From the NCBI GenBank assembly GCA_002798175.1, contig NWQL01000001.1, positions 393,078-457,077 of the forward strand: DNA of 64,000 nt, read 5' to 3'. The stretch comes from Lysobacteraceae bacterium NML91-0213 (GTDB taxonomy: Bacteria; Pseudomonadota; Gammaproteobacteria; Xanthomonadales; Xanthomonadaceae). The translations under genes were made by a program, and so were the position numbers. Below are positions 3,326 to 63,768 of this stretch, piece after piece. Position 1 is the stretch's first letter; every line of letters starts with the position of its first letter. Below the pieces are notes generated by a model. That model was given only the letters and a program-made list of their open reading frames with translations, was not told the DNA's origin and ran no database searches.

Positions 3326-4858
3326 TCAGGACGCTGCGCTATCCACAGGAATCGCCACCCGGCCGCGCAGCGAATTGCTCATCGCCTCGGTGATCACCAC
3401 ATCGACGAACTGGCCGATCAGCCGCTTCGGTGCCGGGAAGTTCACGAAGCGCATGTTCTCGGTGCGGCCGGTGAGCTCGCTGTCGCTCCTGCGCGACACG
3501 CCTTCCACCAGCACCCGCTGCACGCTGCCCACCATCGCCTCGCTGATGCGGCGGGCGTTGGCGTTGATTGCCGCCTGCAGGCGCTCCAGGCGCGCGTGCT
3601 TGACGGCATCCGGGGTGTCGTCGGCGAGGTCGGCGGCGGGCGTACCCGGGCGGCGCGAGTAGATGAAGGAGAAGCTCTGGTCGAAGCCGACCTCCTCGAT
3701 CAGCCTCATGGTCTTCTCGAAGTCGGCATCGGTCTCGCCCGGGAAGCCGACGATGAAGTCCGACGACAGGCAGATGTCCGGGCGCACCGCGCGCAGCCTG
3801 CGCACCTTCTGCTTGAACTCCAGCGCGGTGTAGCCACGCTTCATCGCCGCCAGGATGCGGTCGCTGCCCGACTGCACCGGCAGGTGCAGGAAGTCGGCCA
3901 GCTGCGGCACGTCGCGGTAGGCGTCGATCAGCGAATCGGAGAACTCCAGCGGATGCGAGGTGGTGAAACGGATGCGCTCGATGCCGTCGATCTCGGCGAT
4001 GGTGCGGATCAGCAGGCCGAGGTCGGCGACGTCGCCGGTGTCGGCCCCCATCGGGCCGCGGTAGGCGTTGACGTTCTGGCCGAGCAGGGTGACCTCGCGC
4101 ACGCCCTGCGTGGCCAGCTGCACGACTTCCACCAGCACGTCCTCGAACGGGCGGCTGACTTCCTCGCCGCGGGTGTAGGGCACCACGCAGAACGAGCAGT
4201 ATTTCGAGCAGCCCTCCATGATCGACACGAACGCCGTCGGGCCTTCCGCCCGCGGCTCCGGCATCGCGTCGAACTTCTCGATTTCCGGAAAGCTGATGTC
4301 GACCTGCGGCCGGTCCTGCTCGCGGCGGGCGCGGATCAGGTCCGGCAGGCGGTGCAGGGTCTGCGGGCCGAACACCAGGTCGACGAACGGCGCGCGCCTG
4401 ATGATCGCCTCGCCTTCCTGCGAGGCCACGCAGCCGCCGACGCCGATGATCACGTCGCGATGCTTCTTCAGCGCCTTCCAGCGGCCAAGCTGGCTGAACA
4501 CCTTCTCCTGCGCCTTTTCGCGGATCGAGCAGGTGTTGACCAGGATGACGTCGGCGTCCTCCGCGCGGTCGGTCAGTTCCATGCCCTCGGCCGCCGCCAG
4601 TACGTCGGCCATGCGGTCCGAGTCGTACACGTTCATCTGGCAACCGTGGGTCTGGATATAGAGCTTGCCGGCGCCGGGAAGGGCCGGGCGCCGCGGCGTG
4701 GCAAGCGGCAGGATGTCGCCGACCGCGGCCCGGGGCGGGGCTCCGGCGGACGTGCCTTCGGTCCCCCATCCGTCCTGCGGAAGGCCGTCCCCGCTCCCGT
4801 GGGGCTGGAGAGGGGCGCTGGAGGGCAACCCGTGGTCGCCGTATTCGTTCTGGGTCAT
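3326..4858 (-). CDS. miaB: tRNA-2-methylthio-N6-dimethylallyladenosine synthase MiaB
   Basis: A 510-aa radical-SAM methylthiotransferase. The radical-SAM cluster motif is [18 protein letters not shown] (C-x3-C-x2-C). The N-terminal UPF0004 cysteines are in [17 protein letters not shown] and GVGGCVAS, which bind the auxiliary cluster, and a TRAM domain ends the protein. It methylthiolates A37 of tRNAs reading U-starting codons. The start at MTQNEYGD gives an N-terminal extension of about 60 residues, longer than in Escherichia coli, before the domain begins. Confidence 0.96.
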
Positions 4859-6100: not shown

Positions 6101-6739
6101 ATGGCGAATGAAACGGTGATCCAGCCCGTCCCGGGCGAGGATTCAGTCAATACGGGCCGGCGCCGGTTCCTGACCGCGACCACAGCCGTGGTCGGCGCGG
6201 TCGGAGTGGCGGGCCTCGCGGTGCCCTTCATCAAGTCCTGGAATCCAAGCGCGCGCGCGCTGCTTGCAGGTGCGCCGGTCACGGTGGATATCAGCGCGCT
6301 GCAGGAGGGCCAGCGGCTGATCCTGGAATGGCGAGGCCAGCCGATCTGGATCGTCAAGCGCTCGCAGGCGATCCTCGAAGCGCTGCCGACCCTCGACGAC
6401 GAGCTGCGCGATCCGAATTCCGAGAACCCCGACCAGCAGCCCGACTACGTGCGCGAGGCCAATCCGGTGCTCCGCTCGATCCGCCCGGAGATCTCGGTGC
6501 TCGTCGGCCTGTGCACCCACCTGGGGTGCTCGCCGGAAATGGCCGCCGAGATCCGCCCGGAACCGTTCGATGCCAACTGGAAGGGCGGCTACTTCTGCCC
6601 CTGCCACAAGTCGAAGTTCGACATGGCCGGCCGCGTCTACCAGGGCGTGCCGGCGCCGACCAACCTGGTCGTGCCGCCCCATTACTACGCCGACGAGAAC
6701 ACCATCGTCGTTGGCGTCGATCCGCAGGGAGCCGCATAA
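6101..6739 (+). CDS. petA: Ubiquinol-cytochrome c reductase iron-sulfur (Rieske) subunit
   Basis: A 212-aa protein with a Tat-type N-terminus (TGRRRFLTATTA) followed by one membrane anchor (about 25-45). The Rieske 2Fe-2S ligands are visible in CTHLGCSP and FCPCHKSKFD. It passes electrons from ubiquinol to cytochrome c1 on the periplasmic face of complex III. It is first in petABC, and its TAA stop abuts the petB ATG with no spacer. Confidence 0.97.
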   Translation: MANETVIQPVPGEDSVNTGRRRFLTATTAVVGAVGVAGLAVPFIKSWNPSARALLAGAPVTVDISALQEGQRLILEWRGQPIWIVKRSQAILEALPTLDDELRDPNSENPDQQPDYVREANPVLRSIRPEISVLVGLCTHLGCSPEMAAEIRPEPFDANWKGGYFCPCHKSKFDMAGRVYQGVPAPTNLVVPPHYYADENTIVVGVDPQGAA

Positions 6740-49811: not shown

Positions 49812-49888
49812 CGGGGTATAGCGCAGCCTGGTAGCGCACTTGTCTGGGGGACAAGTGGTCGTCGGTTCGAATCCGGCTACCCCGACCA
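49812..49888 (+). tRNA. tRNA-Pro(GGG), attachment site of the integrated phage
   Basis: Acceptor arms CGGGGTA and TACCCCG pair, then A and CCA. The anticodon loop CTGGGGG holds GGG. The phage-derived genes begin right after its 3' end, with integrase nearby, so the 3' part is the likely att core. The tRNA is intact. Confidence 0.96.
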
Positions 49889-49932
49889 TCTTTCCTAGGG
49901 TTTGTAAGTGAGCAGTTGGGTTAAATAGGGCT

Positions 49933-50719: not shown

Positions 50720-51820
50720 CTACCGATTGAGCGAGAGGCCTGTCTCGACCTCGCTCCACGGCACCTCGTGTCCTTCCAGATAGACCGTCGTCATGCTCGG
50801 CGATGCGTGGCCCATGAGCGCCTGGACCTGCTCGACCGTCCACCCCTGCTCGCGCAGCAGTGCACCGCCCAAGCTGCGGATCTCGTGGAAAGTGGGCGGG
50901 CTGTCGCCGCCGATTCCAGCCGCGTCGCGCGCCTCGGCGAAGGCGCGGGTGATCTGCTCGGGCATCACCTGCGTGTGGTGCACGCGCGCGGCGGCGCGCT
51001 TGTCGCGCGGGCGGGCCTTCTCGGGCAGACGGTGCACCAGGTAGGGCGACACGACGTGGTCGCGACACCTGGCAATCAGCGCCTCGAGATCGGCGCCCAC
51101 CTTAATCCGGAGCCGCAGCGCCGTGCTGCCCTCGGTCTTCTGGGGCACCACCCACATGGCATCGTCGTGCACGTCGGCGAAGCGCAGGCCGGCGACGTCC
51201 TCGCGCCGCAGCAGGGTGATCAGCGACAAATCCATCGCGTTCTGCAGCCAGCTCGGCGCCCGCGCGCGGATGGCGGTGTAGGCCTCGAGCGTGAGGCGCT
51301 CCCGCTGCCGCGTGTGCACGAACTTGCGGGTCTGCTCGGCCGGGTTCGATTCGATCCAGCCCTCCTGCACGGCGCACGCGAGGATCCAGCTCAGCATCAG
51401 GCGGTAGGTCTGGCGCCCGCGCGCGGACTCCGTCACCCCGCGGATGTACTCGGCGCACTCCTTGACGGTGAACTGCTCGAGTTCGCGATCGCCGATGTCG
51501 GTTTCGATGCGGCGCAGGAACACCTCGTACCAGGCCGCCGTCTTCGACGCCCAGCCGCGGTGCGGCATGTCGTCGGCGCGGAAGATGGCCAGCGCATCCA
51601 CCACCTTGCGCGCGCCGCCCACGACACGGGCCACCAGGTCATTCGTCGGGACCAGGAGGGCATTGAGCTTCTTCGCCGCCGTGAAGGCACGGGCTTTGTC
51701 CGTGCCCATCCACGTCTCCTTCTTGGTGACGGGGTGGCGGTACTTGAAGCCACCGCGGCCGGACGTGTACAGGTTGGCTGGCCAGCCGGCGCGGGCTCGG
51801 GATCGGGTTCTCGGCACCAT
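50720..51820 (-). CDS. Phage integrase (tyrosine recombinase)
   Basis: A 366-aa tyrosine recombinase. It has an arm-binding-like N-terminus (LYTSGRGGFKYRHPVTKKETWMG), a core-binding domain (about 70-165) and a catalytic domain. Catalytic residues are visible in LLRREDVAGLRF (Arg), HEIRSLGG (His-x-x-Arg), LMGHASPSMTTVYL (His and the nucleophile Tyr). The ATG at 51820 directly follows the excisionase stop and is preferred over a Met five codons upstream. It is near the end of the leftward operon, next to tRNA-Pro. Confidence 0.95.
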   Translation of the reverse strand: MVPRTRSRARAGWPANLYTSGRGGFKYRHPVTKKETWMGTDKARAFTAAKKLNALLVPTNDLVARVVGGARKVVDALAIFRADDMPHRGWASKTAAWYEVFLRRIETDIGDRELEQFTVKECAEYIRGVTESARGRQTYRLMLSWILACAVQEGWIESNPAEQTRKFVHTRQRERLTLEAYTAIRARAPSWLQNAMDLSLITLLRREDVAGLRFADVHDDAMWVVPQKTEGSTALRLRIKVGADLEALIARCRDHVVSPYLVHRLPEKARPRDKRAAARVHHTQVMPEQITRAFAEARDAAGIGGDSPPTFHEIRSLGGALLREQGWTVEQVQALMGHASPSMTTVYLEGHEVPWSEVETGLSLNR

Positions 51821-51821
51821 G

Positions 51822-52022
51822 TCAGCGTGCCTCATCCAGCACCCGTTGCACCAGATCGTCGCCGTCGGCCAGCCAAGCGGCCTCGTCGATGAACCAGGTG
51901 CCGCCGACCTTCCGGCCGGGCAGCTTGCCGCTGCGCAGCCATCGGCGGATGGTGACCTCGTCAGGGGCGCTGCCCTCGGCGAAGTGCTGCTCGCGCCAGC
52001 GGGGGATCGAAATCAGCTTCAT
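51822..52022 (-). CDS. Excisionase-like small DNA-binding protein
   Basis: A 66-aa protein with a winged-helix pattern DEVTIRRWLRSGKLPGRKVGGTWFIDEAAWL, as in Xis/AlpA-type proteins. Placed just before integrase with 1 nt between stop and start. Probable recombination directionality factor. Confidence 0.8.
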   Translation of the reverse strand: MKLISIPRWREQHFAEGSAPDEVTIRRWLRSGKLPGRKVGGTWFIDEAAWLADGDDLVQRVLDEAR

Positions 52023-55327: not shown

Positions 55328-56263
55328 TCAGGCGTCGGCCTCGGAGAAGCGGAGCGCGCTGGCCAGCACGTCGAACAGGCGCCCGAACTCGCCGGCCATC
55401 AGGGCGAAGCGGGCGTCCAGCTCGGCGGCGATGTCATCGGCCTCCGTCTGCTCGAGCGAGTCGATGGCGCCATCGAGGAATCGCAGCTTCCGGATCACCA
55501 GGTCGTCGCCGAGCACGAACGACAGGTGGTCATCCAGCACCAGCGCGACGCGGGTCACCTGCTTGCCGGACTCGAGGTGGCGCGCGATCTCGTCGGAGGC
55601 CAGATCCTGGTGCTGGCACTTCACGACGGCGCCGCTGCCGGCGGGATCCTTCAGCTCGACCTCCTCGCCCAGCGACAGCCCGTCGGGCAGGGCCTCGCCG
55701 GCGAGCCACCCGGTGAACACCGACCGCGGCGAGATCTCCGCGTTGAGCGGCAGCGCAGGGAAGCTGCCCGCGGCGCGCCGCACCTCGCCCACCACGGTCT
55801 CGGCCGTGCGCCGGCTGGTGGTGTCCACGGCGATGAAGCGACGGTCGAGATCGAAGTAGGCGTCGACGCGCACCGGCTGGACGAACGCCTTCGGCAGCAG
55901 CTCGTGCACCAGGTCATCCCTCAGCTGCTTGCGGCGACGCCCGCCCGGGCGTCGTCCTTCCCGTTCTTCAATCTCCTCGAGCTTGCGGGCGAGCAGCTCG
56001 TTGACCACCGCCGCCGGGAGCAGTCGGTCCTCGCCACCCAGGGTGATCCAGATGGCGTTGCCCAGCTGGTGCGAGAGCTTCTCCCCGCTGCGGCCGAACG
56101 GCGACACGAAGCCGCGGGTGCTGAGCTCGAGCGGGCCGACCGGGCGCAGGGCGCAGTCGACCAGCTGCGCCGGCAGCCCGGCGAGCTCATTCGCGACCGA
56201 CGTGGGGAACAGCCCGGCGAAGTCGGCGGGGAATCGGAAGAACGTGAGGTTCCGGAAGAACAT
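55328..56263 (-). CDS. rdgC: Recombination-associated protein RdgC
   Basis: A 311-aa RdgC with the family start MFFRNLTFFRFP and the segments ALRPVGPLELSTRGFVSPFG and WITLGGEDRLLPAAVVNELL. RdgC is a ring-shaped DNA-binding protein that modulates RecA. The gene is phage-encoded here, in the early operon. Confidence 0.93.
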   Translation of the reverse strand: MFFRNLTFFRFPADFAGLFPTSVANELAGLPAQLVDCALRPVGPLELSTRGFVSPFGRSGEKLSHQLGNAIWITLGGEDRLLPAAVVNELLARKLEEIEEREGRRPGGRRRKQLRDDLVHELLPKAFVQPVRVDAYFDLDRRFIAVDTTSRRTAETVVGEVRRAAGSFPALPLNAEISPRSVFTGWLAGEALPDGLSLGEEVELKDPAGSGAVVKCQHQDLASDEIARHLESGKQVTRVALVLDDHLSFVLGDDLVIRKLRFLDGAIDSLEQTEADDIAAELDARFALMAGEFGRLFDVLASALRFSEADA

Positions 56264-59398: not shown

Positions 59399-59514
59399 GG
59401 CGGACTCCGACTGGAGCGAAGAACGCCGGCGGGGTCTGGGGCGGGAGAGGGGAGGCTCCCGAGGGGACGACCCCGCCGGGCGTCCTGTCGTCGGACCATC
59501 CGGCGACACGCACA

Positions 59515-59556
59515 GTTAGCCCTAAGCTAATCATCCCGTCAATAGCCATGTGCTAA
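59515..59556 (-). promoter_or_regulatory. Left operators and promoter of the leftward early operon
   Basis: Two 15-bp palindromes, TTAGC-CCTAA-GCTAA (59516-59530) and ATAGC-CATGT-GCTAA (59542-59556), lie 26 bp centre to centre. On the minus strand TTGACG (59542-59537) and GCTAAC (59520-59515), 16 bp apart, form a possible promoter spanned by the operators. The same palindrome occurs at the repressor/Cro region. Confidence 0.75.
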
Positions 59557-59650
59557 TGAAAGCGGGAAACGAGACAGCCGGCGTTCAGGCTCAGTCAACG
59601 CAATCGACCGTCTTGCGCCAGAATGTGCGTCGATGACGCCGGAGACAGGG

Positions 59651-60184
59651 ATGGACGCAAGGCTGTTGCTGGGAGCGATGCTCCTGCTCGTGTCGGCTAC
59701 TGCGCAGGGCCAGATCTATCGATGCAAGGGGGCGGGAGGCGCGACTACGTACTCGGACAAGCCGTGCGGAGCGGACGCCGAGCTTCGCGAGTACCGGGCA
59801 CCTCGGGCACCGGAAGCTTCCGGCGAGCCTGACTCGAACGTCAGGGCTATCCTGCAATCCAACGAGATGAGTTCCATTGCGATCGCGGAGCGGCGCTGCC
59901 TAGGGAACGCGGAGTCGGACATCTACCGACCGGTCAATTCGCGTGTTGCGGGATACCAGCGGGAGATCCAGCAGCTCGAGCGTCAGCTCAGCGGTGCGAA
60001 CAACAACCTCGCTGGCGCGACATACGGCAGCGGGATCCGCAACCAGATCGCAGCGCTCCACCAGTCGATCAGCACGGAACGGGCTGCGGCGGATACCCAG
60101 ATGGCGGCTGCCAGGCAGAACTGTTCGCAGCAGCGACGTGATGCCGAGTCTCGGACCAGAGAGAAGTTCACCACCACTCCCTGA
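59651..60184 (+). CDS. Secreted DUF4124-type protein (phage cargo)
   Basis: A 177-aa secreted protein with signal peptide MDARLLLGAMLLLVSATAQG, a DUF4124-like segment (QIYRCKGAGGATTYSDKPCG) and a long coiled coil (SRVAGYQREIQQLERQLSG onward). GGAG 6 nt before the ATG at 59651 decides the start over an ATG at 59633. It lies inside the immunity region on the opposite strand to its neighbours; possible cell-envelope cargo gene of the lysogen. Confidence 0.75.
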   Translation: MDARLLLGAMLLLVSATAQGQIYRCKGAGGATTYSDKPCGADAELREYRAPRAPEASGEPDSNVRAILQSNEMSSIAIAERRCLGNAESDIYRPVNSRVAGYQREIQQLERQLSGANNNLAGATYGSGIRNQIAALHQSISTERAAADTQMAAARQNCSQQRRDAESRTREKFTTTP

Positions 60185-60191
60185 TCTCCCG

Positions 60192-61028
60192 TCAGGCGGT
60201 TTCGAGCTCGATCAGCTGCCCGGCGCCGCTCTCGGCACTCACGACCGTGCGGAAGATCACGCCCGCGGATTCCGCCTCGCGGCCGAGCTCATGGCGCATC
60301 TCGTGCAGCCGCGCGCGCTGGCGATCGCCCAGCACCGGGTCGTCATCCCGCTGCATGCCGGAGATCAGGGCGGCTTTCGGCTGGCGGCCGACGCGTCGCC
60401 CCTTGTCGAGCTCCCACAGTCGACCCCGCGCATCGCGCAGGCTGGCGCCGTGGCGCAGGGGGTTGAGCACGCTGAAGTGGGCCAGAACCCTGGTGGACGC
60501 GTAGCCGAACCGCACCAGCTCGCCCCCTTCAACCAACACCGACGTGCGGCCGAAGTACTGCCTGAGTTCGGGACGGAGATTGGTCACCGCCTGCCGGATA
60601 TCGGTGCTGAAGCGGCGTGTGATTTCCTCGTCGCCGGGGCCGTCCGATTCGTCGGCGTCGTCCAGCGCGTCGAGGTTGGCCAGGCTGGAGTACTGCAGGG
60701 CCGCAATACGTAGCAGATCGTTGACCGACAGCGCAGCTGTCTCGCGAAGCTCGGATGGGTGAAGCCCGCCGAGCGAGACGTCCAGACGGTCCAGAGACCC
60801 GCCTGCGCGCGCGGCAGCGACGTACATCTCCAGCGCCACGTCGATCAGCTTTCGGGCGCCATCAGCGGCCTTGCCGTACAGGGCCGTCAACACGTCGTCG
60901 CGCAAGATCCGTCTGCCGCCCCAGCCTTCACCGAAGTGGTAGACGACACCCACCATGAGGCGCTCGCCGGTGCCGGCGACCGGCTCCCAGAACAGGGCAC
61001 GCCAAGGGGCTAGGGAGGGCGTCGTCAC
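60192..61028 (-). CDS. DUF3037-like protein, partner of the HipA-like kinase
   Basis: A 278-aa protein. The N-terminal part (WRALFWEPVAGTGERLMVGVVYHFGEG) resembles the DUF3037 pattern in which a Gly-Glu-(R/F)-x-N-x-Gly-Val-Val core follows a short strand. The rest is mixed alpha/beta with an Asp/Glu-rich segment (LDALDDADESDGPGDEE). GTG overlaps the kinase stop (GTGA). DUF3037 proteins are, from memory, common neighbours of HipA-like kinases. Function unknown. Confidence 0.65.
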   Translation of the reverse strand: MTTPSLAPWRALFWEPVAGTGERLMVGVVYHFGEGWGGRRILRDDVLTALYGKAADGARKLIDVALEMYVAAARAGGSLDRLDVSLGGLHPSELRETAALSVNDLLRIAALQYSSLANLDALDDADESDGPGDEEITRRFSTDIRQAVTNLRPELRQYFGRTSVLVEGGELVRFGYASTRVLAHFSVLNPLRHGASLRDARGRLWELDKGRRVGRQPKAALISGMQRDDDPVLGDRQRARLHEMRHELGREAESAGVIFRTVVSAESGAGQLIELETA

Positions 61029-61771
61029 GCCCGGGATAGTAGATCGTCGGGTGCCGGGAAGCGAGCGAGGATTCGGGACGCAATATCCGACATCCGTGAC
61101 GCCACGAACTCCGCCTGCTGGCGGGTGTCGTGCATCGTGGCCATCGCATCGGCGACGGCGTCGGGCAGGTCGCGGGCCATCACGAACGTGCGCGCCACGG
61201 CGGCCTGCCGGAAGGGCGCCTCCTGCCCCACCATCACGGACATGAAGCAGAGCTTGTTGTGGTCGGCCAGCTGGCTCTGGCCGAGGCTGTGCGCGTGGTC
61301 AATCCACGCCTCGCGCTGGCCATCCCAGAGGATGTTCTCGAGGTTTCGGTCGCGGTTGTCGATCGCCTCGTCGGCGACGGCGGCCAGGGGGGCGTTGGCC
61401 AGCCCCACCGCCACGCCGATGGCAATCCCGATCGCGGCGTCCCGTTCCGGTGAGCCTTCTTCGAGACCCACCGTGAGCGGCTGCAGGAGGTTCGGGTATC
61501 CGGCGTCGGCACTGCCGAACGCCAAGGCACCACCCACGTCGACCAGGTATGGGTCCGGCACGGGCAGGCCCCAGCCGCGTAACAGGAGAGCCGCGAAGGA
61601 CTCCGTGACCACGTGCTCGAGCGGGATGCGCTTGATGATGCCGGAGACGGCCTTTCCGGCCACTCGCAACGCGCAGCGGGATGCGCCAGTCCGCCCGATT
61701 CCGATCGGCCGCTCGGTTCCCGCGATCAGCTCCGCCCACTGTATGGCGGGCGGCTGCCTGGGCTCAGTCAC
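61025..61771 (-). CDS. HipA-like Ser/Thr kinase
   Basis: A 248-aa compact kinase-fold protein. Visible features are a possible ATP-lysine (SGIIKRIP, Lys47), ESFAALLLRGWGLPVPDPYLVDV, the catalytic loop DNRDRNLENILWD (Asp141-Arg142, Asn146) and the metal Asp in WIDHAHSLG (Asp158). This matches the short HipA_2-type rather than the 440-aa HipA toxin. No HipB-like antitoxin is next to it. GTG start overlaps the upstream stop by 8 nt. Probable toxin or signalling kinase. Confidence 0.75.
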   Translation of the reverse strand: MTEPRQPPAIQWAELIAGTERPIGIGRTGASRCALRVAGKAVSGIIKRIPLEHVVTESFAALLLRGWGLPVPDPYLVDVGGALAFGSADAGYPNLLQPLTVGLEEGSPERDAAIGIAIGVAVGLANAPLAAVADEAIDNRDRNLENILWDGQREAWIDHAHSLGQSQLADHNKLCFMSVMVGQEAPFRQAAVARTFVMARDLPDAVADAMATMHDTRQQAEFVASRMSDIASRILARFPAPDDLLSRA

Positions 61772-62225
61772 TGGTCCGCGCCGCCTGCCTGGCGGAATGG
61801 AGGGCCTGCTCCGCCAGCAACTTCCGAACGGCTGAGAGGTCGTTGGCAATGCGGAACACGATGGCTATCCCTTCCAGGGCGAGCCGTGCCGCCACCAGCC
61901 ACACAAGGCACCCGACGGCCAGAAGGTAGGCCTCCTGCATGATGGCCAGGATGGCGCCGGCCACGCTGCCCACCACGGCAAGCAGGAAGGCGACATGCAC
62001 GAGGAAAGGCGTGTACATCGTGCGGAACGCGGTGAAGCCAGCGCCGTCAATCTCGCCCGCCTGCCGGTACCGGAGCGCGGCCCTGGCGCTTCGTACTGTG
62101 GCCGCGTCCGGCCCCGCGACGCCCTCCACGCGCGCATAGATCACACCGCACCGGGGGCATTCGCCCGCTGGCGCCGTGTCGGTGTCCTGGCGCTCGTAGC
62201 CGCAGCGCACGCAGATCTTTCCCAT
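61764..62225 (-). CDS. Zinc-ribbon plus DUF4282 membrane protein
   Basis: A 153-aa protein. The N-terminal zinc ribbon (ICVRCGYERQ, GECPRCGVIYARVEG) precedes a DUF4282-like domain with two membrane helices (FTAFRTMYTPFLVHVAFLLAVVGSVAGAILAI and YLLAVGCLVWLVAARLALEGIAIVFRI). It lies just after the CI-like repressor gene on the same strand and overlaps the HipA-like kinase. It might be the membrane sensor or anchor of the module. Confidence 0.7.
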   Translation of the reverse strand: MGKICVRCGYERQDTDTAPAGECPRCGVIYARVEGVAGPDAATVRSARAALRYRQAGEIDGAGFTAFRTMYTPFLVHVAFLLAVVGSVAGAILAIMQEAYLLAVGCLVWLVAARLALEGIAIVFRIANDLSAVRKLLAEQALHSARQAARTSD

Positions 62226-62262
62226 CGTCCCTCCCTCGAAGAGTCCTTTCCCCCGGCCTGCG

Positions 62263-62718
62263 CTATCGGTTCCCCCCGTCGCGCTTGCTGCCGGTGATCA
62301 TGTGCGCCAGCGACTCCTTCAGGTGGGGGTCTTCTGGTGTAGCGGCCAGCGATTCAAGGAGCTTTCCGGCTGCCGGCCGCAGTCCTGCCGGCATGCGCCG
62401 CAGCGCATCGGCCAGCACGCTGGCAATGTCGCGCTCGGTAGCGGCCGCGATCGGCGGTTCTTGAGCACCCGTTTCGCCGGGTCCTGAGTGGAACGTATCG
62501 AGCCAGCCCTCGGGTTTGCCGGTAACACGTTCGATGTATCGGGCAGTGTCTTTCAACATGCCGCGCGGTTTCCCGGTGGCCGAGTTCTTGCTGCCGTTGA
62601 GCCACTGGCTCACTTGGGAGGGGGTCCGATCGGCAAGCCGGGCCACCGCGGCTACTGAGCCGAACTCTCGGACGAGGATCGCGAGGTTCGCCCGGCGTAT
62701 TTCATCGATGTCGTGCAT
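62263..62718 (-). CDS. CI-like phage repressor (short form)
   Basis: A 151-aa protein with an N-terminal Cro/CI helix-turn-helix (NLAILVREFGSVAAVARLADRTPSQVSQWLNGSK) and a short helical C-terminal part. The S24 self-cleavage domain of long CI proteins is absent, so induction must differ from lambda. The start MHDIDEIRR keeps both right operators upstream of the gene. First gene of the leftward immunity transcript. Confidence 0.85.
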   Translation of the reverse strand: MHDIDEIRRANLAILVREFGSVAAVARLADRTPSQVSQWLNGSKNSATGKPRGMLKDTARYIERVTGKPEGWLDTFHSGPGETGAQEPPIAAATERDIASVLADALRRMPAGLRPAAGKLLESLAATPEDPHLKESLAHMITGSKRDGGNR

Positions 62719-62729
62719 CGAGCGATTGC

Positions 62730-62791
62730 ATAGCCCGTGGCTAACAAAAGCCATTCGCGGCAGGCTTGCGAGAGCATTAGCCATGCGCTAA
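62730..62791. promoter_or_regulatory. Right operators between the repressor and YdaS-like genes
   Basis: ATAGC-CCGTG-GCTAA (62730-62744) and TTAGC-CATGC-GCTAA (62777-62791) lie in the divergent region. They share the form of the left operators 3.2 kb away. For the rightward promoter, TTGCGA (62766-62771) and TAATGT (62789-62794) at 17 bp are possible; the second operator would cover this -10. Confidence 0.78.
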
Positions 62792-62800
62792 TGTGGCCGC

Positions 62801-63088
62801 ATGAACCTCACCGACTATTTGAAGCAGGAGCGGGGCCGCGGCGCCGCGTTGGCGCGAGTGCTGAGCGTCACCCCCGTGACCGTTTCCCAGTGGAGCAGCG
62901 GCGATCGGCAGGTGCCTGCGGAGCGCTGCCCCGCGATCGAGCGCGCCACCGGTGGCCAGGTCCGCTGCGAAGAGCTGCGCCCCGATGTCGACTGGAAGTA
63001 CCTGCGCGCCAGCGCCGTGGAGTCGAACTCCATGGTCGAAGCCGACCCTGATGCCGGGCGCATCGAGCCGCTGGCGGAGTTGCCGTGA
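62801..63088 (+). CDS. YdaS/Cro-like antitermination or repressor protein
   Basis: A 95-aa protein of the YdaS_antitoxin/Cro group (LTDYLKQERGRGAALARVLSVTPVTVSQWSSGDRQVPAERCPAIERATGG). It occupies the Cro position, divergent from the repressor. No Shine-Dalgarno is visible before its ATG, which lies only 6 nt after the putative -10, so the mRNA could be leaderless. Confidence 0.85.
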   Translation: MNLTDYLKQERGRGAALARVLSVTPVTVSQWSSGDRQVPAERCPAIERATGGQVRCEELRPDVDWKYLRASAVESNSMVEADPDAGRIEPLAELP

Positions 63089-63141
63089 TGTCGCGAGAGC
63101 TTCCATGCCTTGCAGCGTGGGTCACGCCGAGGACTCCGTAA

Positions 63142-63768
63142 ATGACGCAGCAACGTCAGTACCGCGAGCCACGCGCCGCGGTCATCTTCCGCTTCACTAC
63201 CGATGCCATCCGCAACAGCCACCACAACGATGCGTCGTTCGCCCAGGCCGTTGCCGATGCCTACATGGATCAGGTGGCGCCCGAGGAGCGCACCACGCAG
63301 TTCCACGTGGGCACTGACCTCGCCAGCCTGGAGAAGGCCGGCAAGCTCAACGCGAAGCTGATCGAGCGGTTCCGCAACGGCACGGTGAAGCTGCCGGCCG
63401 ACCTCGAGGAAGCGTGGGTTGCCGCGCTGCCTGAGCCGTGGCGGCTGGACTGCGCCCGGGAGCTGGCGCGCCGGTACGGCTTCATCGGCGCCCGTGTGCC
63501 CTCCAGCGCCGCGGCCGGCCAGATGCTCTGCACCGCGCAGGTGGCGATGGAGTTCGGCCAGGCCCTGCAGGCGCTGGCCGAGATCAACATGGACGGCGTG
63601 GTCAACGCGCACGACCTGGCGCGGGTGCGCCGCGCGCTGAAGGAATGCGGAGATCTCGCCAGCGAGGTCACCACGCTCAAGGCCACGCTGCACCAGCAGC
63701 TCGACACCCTGGAGGCGAGCGCGCGGCCGGTGGCAGTGGGTGGCGACGCGCGGAGGGCAGGGCGGTGA
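63142..63768 (+). CDS. Phage early regulatory-type protein
   Basis: A 208-aa protein (VIFRFTTDAIRNSHHNDASFAQAVADAYMDQVAPEERTTQFHVG, LIERFRNGTVKLPADLEEAWVAALPEPWR). I recall similar proteins in Xanthomonas and Stenotrophomonas phages just after a Cro-like gene; the function is not known to me, possibly CII-like or in replication control. GAGG lies about 10 nt upstream of the ATG. The stop overlaps the next gene (GTGA). Confidence 0.7.
   Translation: MTQQRQYREPRAAVIFRFTTDAIRNSHHNDASFAQAVADAYMDQVAPEERTTQFHVGTDLASLEKAGKLNAKLIERFRNGTVKLPADLEEAWVAALPEPWRLDCARELARRYGFIGARVPSSAAAGQMLCTAQVAMEFGQALQALAEINMDGVVNAHDLARVRRALKECGDLASEVTTLKATLHQQLDTLEASARPVAVGGDARRAGR

Follow-up and report, generated by a model that had tools for sequence, protein, structure and literature searches.

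A probable lysogen-expressed exclusion cassette of HipAD type with a strongly diverged partner behind a Lysobacteraceae prophage repressor

Two overlapping genes in the lysogeny region of a prophage of Lysobacteraceae bacterium NML91-0213 probably (probability roughly 0.7) form a toxin-antitoxin exclusion cassette of HipAD type, which would be expressed in the lysogen and represents a lineage of its own, marked by a strongly diverged partner protein. The repressor transcript would carry the cassette, so that it would be made while the lytic genes are off, and the partner would bind and silence the kinase. Infection by another phage would free the kinase, which could then phosphorylate a host target and stop growth before the invader matures. 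A role in the exclusion of other phages, as proposed in the original prediction, is likely by homology with HipAD, for which kinase-dependent defense is described in the accessible parts of PMC13092281 and PMC12548924.

The analyzed stretch of 64,000 nucleotides (the window) is part of a genome of 3.24 Mb, and its relevant features are listed in Table 1. The arrangement of three same-strand genes following the repressor was verified by coordinates and reading frames. A gap of 37 nt separates the repressor gene from the zinc-ribbon gene, which overlaps the kinase gene by 8 nt, and the kinase and partner genes overlap by 4 nt. The open frame of the kinase reaches back to 61849; the GTG codon giving the 8-nt overlap was taken as the start. 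Due to the repressor matches and the divergent YdaS/Cro-like and CII-like neighbors, the region was identified as the lysogeny switch. A perfect second copy of the 48-bp repeat is located on the same contig (C1:491725-491772), and the paired repeats point to a prophage of about 48.9 kb, which starts at 49842 and continues past the end of the window. Genes for terminase, portal, head protease, tape measure and tail proteins were found to the right of the window. A simple scan of positions 59400-63200 detected no sigma-70-type promoter, and co-transcription with the repressor is therefore suggested by gene position. In addition, a gene for a DUF4124 protein (59633-60184, forward strand, E 3.9e-9) and the partner gene are convergent, their stop codons being 7 nt apart; the DUF4124 gene is probably another prophage passenger.

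Table 1. Positions of the cassette, the lysogeny switch and further prophage features in the window.
Feature	Positions	Strand	Remarks
Att-like repeat, 48 bp	49842-49889		At the 3' end of tRNA-Pro (49812-49888)
Prophage integrase, near tRNA-Pro	50720-51835	-	phrog_1, 1.5e-38
Recombination exonuclease	55328-56263		
Partner protein, 278 aa, proposed antitoxin/sensor	60192-61028	-	GTG start; phrog_21150 family
HipA_2-type small kinase, 248 aa, proposed toxin	61025-61771	-	GTG start
Zinc-ribbon protein	61764-62225	-	ATG start
Phage repressor	62263-62784	-	phrog_12107, 7.4e-28
Divergent Cro/YdaS-like regulator	62801-63088	+	Pfam YdaS_toxin 8.9e-24, phrog_35 3.7e-22
CII-like activator	63142-63768	+	phrog_4834, 3.1e-38

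The assignment of the second gene to the HipA-like kinases was confirmed at the family level, the window protein alone remaining below the Pfam cut-off. It matches HipA_2 weakly (E 0.006, 16.3 bits, cut-off 27) and is one of 27 among the 37 aligned kinases that match this profile at E ≤ 0.01. The comparison of the kinase-family profile with the HipAD kinase profile by hhalign resulted in a probability of 99.0 and an E-value of 2.7e-18. The residues K47, E57, D134, N139, D141, R142 and D158 are invariant across the 37 kinases; from general knowledge of HipA, we take them to be the ATP-lysine, catalytic-loop and metal-binding residues. Against PADLOC PDC-M66A, the window kinase scored an E-value of 0.044, the kinase of Luteimonas sp. 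9C 0.006 and three other kinases of the new lineage 5.8e-7 to 3.2e-14. In a tree of 92 rows, which was obtained by a quick search and contains four long branches flagged by the program, the new-type kinases form a lineage separate from HipAD, as 39 kinases with the new partner and 53 kinases from DUF3037 loci are divided by one branch (SH-aLRT 95). This division by partner type means that no exchange of partner type between kinases occurred in this sample.

The partner had been described as a DUF3037-like protein, which probably applies to the predicted fold and does not apply to the sequence family. It matches phrog_21150 (5.3e-54), a family without known function. Unlike the HipAD partners, of which 34/34 match Pfam DUF3037 at E ≤ 0.01, none of the 38 new partners does so, and the partner has no HTH or other Pfam match. 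PADLOC PDC-M66B likewise gave no match for the five partners and one fragment scanned, the window partner included, and the window locus was not among the hits of a PF11236 profile search of its genome. Surveys by partner will thus miss this lineage, as it escapes the partner searches tried (Pfam DUF3037, PADLOC PDC-M66B). The new partners share the invariant motif E-P-x4-G-E-R, in contrast to P-x2-E-T-x-E-F-x-N-x-G in HipAD.

With HHalign, the partner and DUF3037 profiles could be aligned end to end over 254 columns. The local score of 26.0 (E 0.0083) compares with 11.4-18.5 for eight column shuffles and with 21.3 when the profile was reversed, and the global mode gave an E-value of 2e-4; at probabilities of 4.8% (local) and 21.9% (global), the link at the sequence level is weak. 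The predicted models of the partner and of a DUF3037 protein (pLDDT 91.8 and 92.1) contain strands and helical stretches in the same order. The top two BFVD matches of the partner model (4.1e-17 and 2.8e-8) are also the only two matches of the DUF3037 model below 1e-3 (9.6e-9 and 1.8e-10), with low TM-scores to these two shared models (0.38-0.55). The C-terminal domain of the partner (about residues 134-278) is nuclease-like in its predicted fold. No acidic residue or lysine is conserved in it at ≥70%, and it may therefore bind DNA or protein rather than cut. A nuclease-like domain lacking conserved catalytic-type residues leads to a sensor hypothesis, which may extend to HipAD.

A counter-defense function, in which the prophage partner neutralizes a HipA_2/DUF3037 pair of the host itself, was considered due to the resemblance of the predicted partner fold to DUF3037. 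Outside the prophage, the same genome contains a DUF3037 match (2.7e-43) at C11:292070-292423 (L061), and the frame beside this gene contains a HipA_2-type kinase by eye. Cross-talk between the prophage pair and this locus is possible. For pure counter-defense, the kinase with its invariant residues, which the prophage has kept, would be superfluous, and the division of the kinases by partner type points to dedicated pairs, so that hardly any weight is given to this function.

The system closest to the cassette is HipAD (DS-6; PADLOC candidate PDC-M66A/B), a recently validated anti-phage system that consists of a HipA_2 kinase and a DUF3037 partner, by which it is recognized; DUF1829 is also named for DS-6B. 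In the accessible part of PMC13092281, DS-6, renamed HipAD, is described as a HipA-related kinase with a DUF3037/DUF1829 protein, which loses defense upon a catalytic mutation of the kinase; kinase-partner and partner-DNA contacts were predicted with AlphaFold3, and abortive infection was hypothesized. For Retron-Sda1, whose kinase/DUF3037 pair is PDC-M66 in PADLOC, the accessible part of PMC12548924 reports that the kinase is required for defense against Bas51 and that deletion of the DUF3037 gene is toxic. HipAD and the new pair have homologous kinases and partner models with the same predicted order of elements. In both, the kinase comes first and the partner second, often with a 4-nt overlap, and both occur behind phage repressors, including one shared slot. 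Like HipBA, HipBST and the families of Gerdes et al. 2021, the cassette combines a HipA-like kinase with a small partner, and the accessible part of that work suggests DNA-binding HIRAN domains of such antitoxins as possible phage-DNA sensors (PMC8262856). Unlike in HipBA, the window partner is encoded after the kinase, is DUF3037-like and nuclease-like in its predicted fold and has no HTH family match. The HTH antitoxin HipB before the kinase is absent, the upstream HTH protein matching phage repressor families.

Kinase and partner form a conserved, tightly packed two-gene unit. Scans with the partner alignment revealed 21 loci in viral_contigs and 22 in genome_contigs, near-duplicates included. 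In 42 of these 43 loci a kinase of the same family adjoins the partner (exception L057), and in 42 of 43 the kinase gene is directly followed by the partner gene, as in HipAD. A partner start giving the 4-nt overlap is available in 25/43 non-redundant new-type pairs and in 60/61 HipAD pairs. The pair was also found in Alteromonas phage P24, in Acinetobacter phage vB_AbaS_qsb1 and on a Marinobacter plasmid with phage-type genes. Luteimonas sp. 9C (G244), one of the genomes with the pair, belongs to the same genus as the window genome. The phrog_21150 partner family is rare and was found in 4 of the 369 genomes sampled from the class, the window's own included; of 297 family genomes sampled, two contain the partner and three the kinase, one of the latter being a weak match lacking the partner. 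Comparisons between relatives revealed purifying selection on the pair, with dN/dS of 0.05-0.12 in 8 of 10 gene comparisons; the window's own genes are not among these pairs, dS was not estimable in the other two comparisons, and it was near saturation (1.4-2.2) for L052/L055. On two Pseudomonas plasmids, shortened partner-type genes are present as frames of 133 aa (L007:3944-4345) and 186 aa (L010:3785-4345), and no kinase match was found beside them.

The kinase/partner architecture and its presence on phages and a plasmid would also fit a plain addiction module, that is, a toxin-antitoxin pair that maintains the prophage in the population without any exclusion role. The toxic loss of the DUF3037 partner, reported in the accessible part of PMC12548924, agrees with this. 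HipAD itself defends in published assays (PMC13092281 and PMC12548924, in their accessible parts), and the copy in Luteimonas sp. 9C, which by eye lies outside a prophage, would not need an addiction role, so that addiction as the only function is considered unlikely. This Luteimonas pair (L011:7013-12597) has no repressor near it; the neighboring genes encode an OmpA-like protein and a long membrane protein that is coiled-coil-like.

The third gene is accessory: it belongs to the same operon by position and is not part of the conserved unit. Its original description as a DUF4282 zinc-ribbon membrane protein was retained for the zinc ribbon, with two CxxC pairs, and for the hydrophobic C-terminal half, while the DUF4282 match is partial and below threshold (32/86 profile positions, E 1.6e-4, 22.6 bits, cut-off 27). 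The suggested three-gene set was not recovered elsewhere. No relatives of the zinc-ribbon protein were found in viral_contigs, in the phage records or in the 296 other sampled family genomes (1/297, the genome itself). In nine loci (L006, L018, L022, L029, L031, L037, L043, L052, L055), the kinase gene starts ≤6 nt after the HTH gene, which leaves no room for a third gene. Among loci with an upstream HTH gene, gaps of ≥180 nt were found in 4/18 of the new type and in 14/41 of HipAD type (from the best 80 of 107). The frames in such gaps vary and several resemble small lipoproteins or membrane proteins; some of those listed are probably not genes, and in the window an out-of-frame ORF was picked. 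The gap between repressor and kinase looks like a second passenger position and not like the place of a required subunit.

It is consequently very improbable that the zinc-ribbon protein acts as integral sensor or anchor of a three-part membrane set. Such a set would agree with the 8-nt overlap with the kinase gene and with two HipAD loci that also have a zinc-ribbon protein between repressor and kinase (L074, L085); it is opposed by the lack of relatives in viral_contigs, the phage records and the other sampled family genomes, by the nine loci with closed gaps and by the variation of the frames where there is room. In the exclusion cassette preferred here, the zinc-ribbon gene would either be carried along as an accessory or be another, independent exclusion gene in this operon. 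The zinc-ribbon proteins of L074 (about 3826-4164) and L085 (about 3726-4181) contain hydrophobic segments, and in L091 and L093 the region between the repressor and the HipAD kinase holds a lipoprotein-like frame and what by eye is a DnaQ-like exonuclease.

In phage lambda, rexAB is located behind the repressor gene cI. The window genes immediately follow the repressor and share its strand, so that the predicted rex-like place was confirmed by position, and lysogen expression is expected for them as for RexAB. No Rex family is among the matches of the three window proteins in Pfam, PADLOC and PHROGs and, unlike RexAB, the window cassette encodes a predicted kinase. This placement had been regarded as new, which could not be maintained: HipAD-type cassettes in phages commonly occupy this place, and a public record already shows it. 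Escherichia phage PhiR5_1 (PV340545) is annotated with Cro, cI, HipA, HipD, Kil, Gam and Bet, and the first publication on HipAD (Brenes and Laub 2025) may already describe the position behind cI. In the open-licence literature, no study was found that deals with this lineage of partners or with HipA kinases in combination with cI repressors.

The HipAD viral loci were taken from the best 80 of 107 and made non-redundant. Of those with enough flank, 37/49 have a same-strand HTH gene at a distance of up to 1.5 kb upstream and 2/49 have one downstream, using an HTH profile trained only on loci of the other family. For the new-type viral loci, a profile built only from HipAD loci detected such a gene upstream in 7/17 (window included) and downstream in 0/17, leaving 10/17 phage-type loci with no same-strand upstream HTH gene by this independent profile; a pooled profile, which is circular here, gave 11/17. 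Among the genome and plasmid loci with enough flank, the pooled profile found an upstream HTH gene in 5/18 and none in 13/18. Linkage to the repressor is thus common but not required.

The frequent location of the pair close to the repressor in phages would also be expected if the kinase acted on the switch of its own prophage and tuned induction, with a precedent in KKP, the kinase-phosphatase module of Pf prophages (accessible part of PMC11341870). By eye, the repressors that precede the pair are visibly different, and some genome loci with the pair lack a nearby HTH gene, which makes a specific repressor substrate unlikely, and such a control of lysogeny is regarded as improbable.

Two prophages, L025 and L148, indicate that cassettes of both types use the same slot. 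They share 2418 bp at 90.5% identity on one side and 4921 bp at 91.6% on the other; between these flanks, one contains the kinase with the new partner and the other the kinase with DUF3037. The two cassettes could not be aligned at the DNA level. The kinases share 24.6% identity over 122 aa, and BLASTP found no meaningful match between the partners. The DNA-binding half of the repressor and Cro also differ between them, the C-terminal end of the repressor being kept (L025:3081-12794, L148:1191-10801). These backbones show a modular immunity region. They represent one clear pair, the flanks of other pairs being about 70-80% identical. With the same backbone and slot and a different kinase and partner, L025 and L148 are a natural pair to ask what the partner recognizes.

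A further-reaching interpretation is put forward tentatively and is rather doubtful. The cassette would represent a second, unrecognized HipA_2 antitoxin lineage, in which a dead nuclease-like domain binds incoming phage DNA and releases the kinase, and temperate phages would exchange this cassette and HipAD at one repressor slot. If this is true, the slot behind the repressor would serve as a socket for immunity that is expressed in the lysogen and covers different phage spectra. In another two loci (L034, L035), a common kinase/partner cassette was observed with repressor frames of 128 and 196 aa upstream of position 6202, which differ in the N-terminal half and are similar at the C-terminal end.
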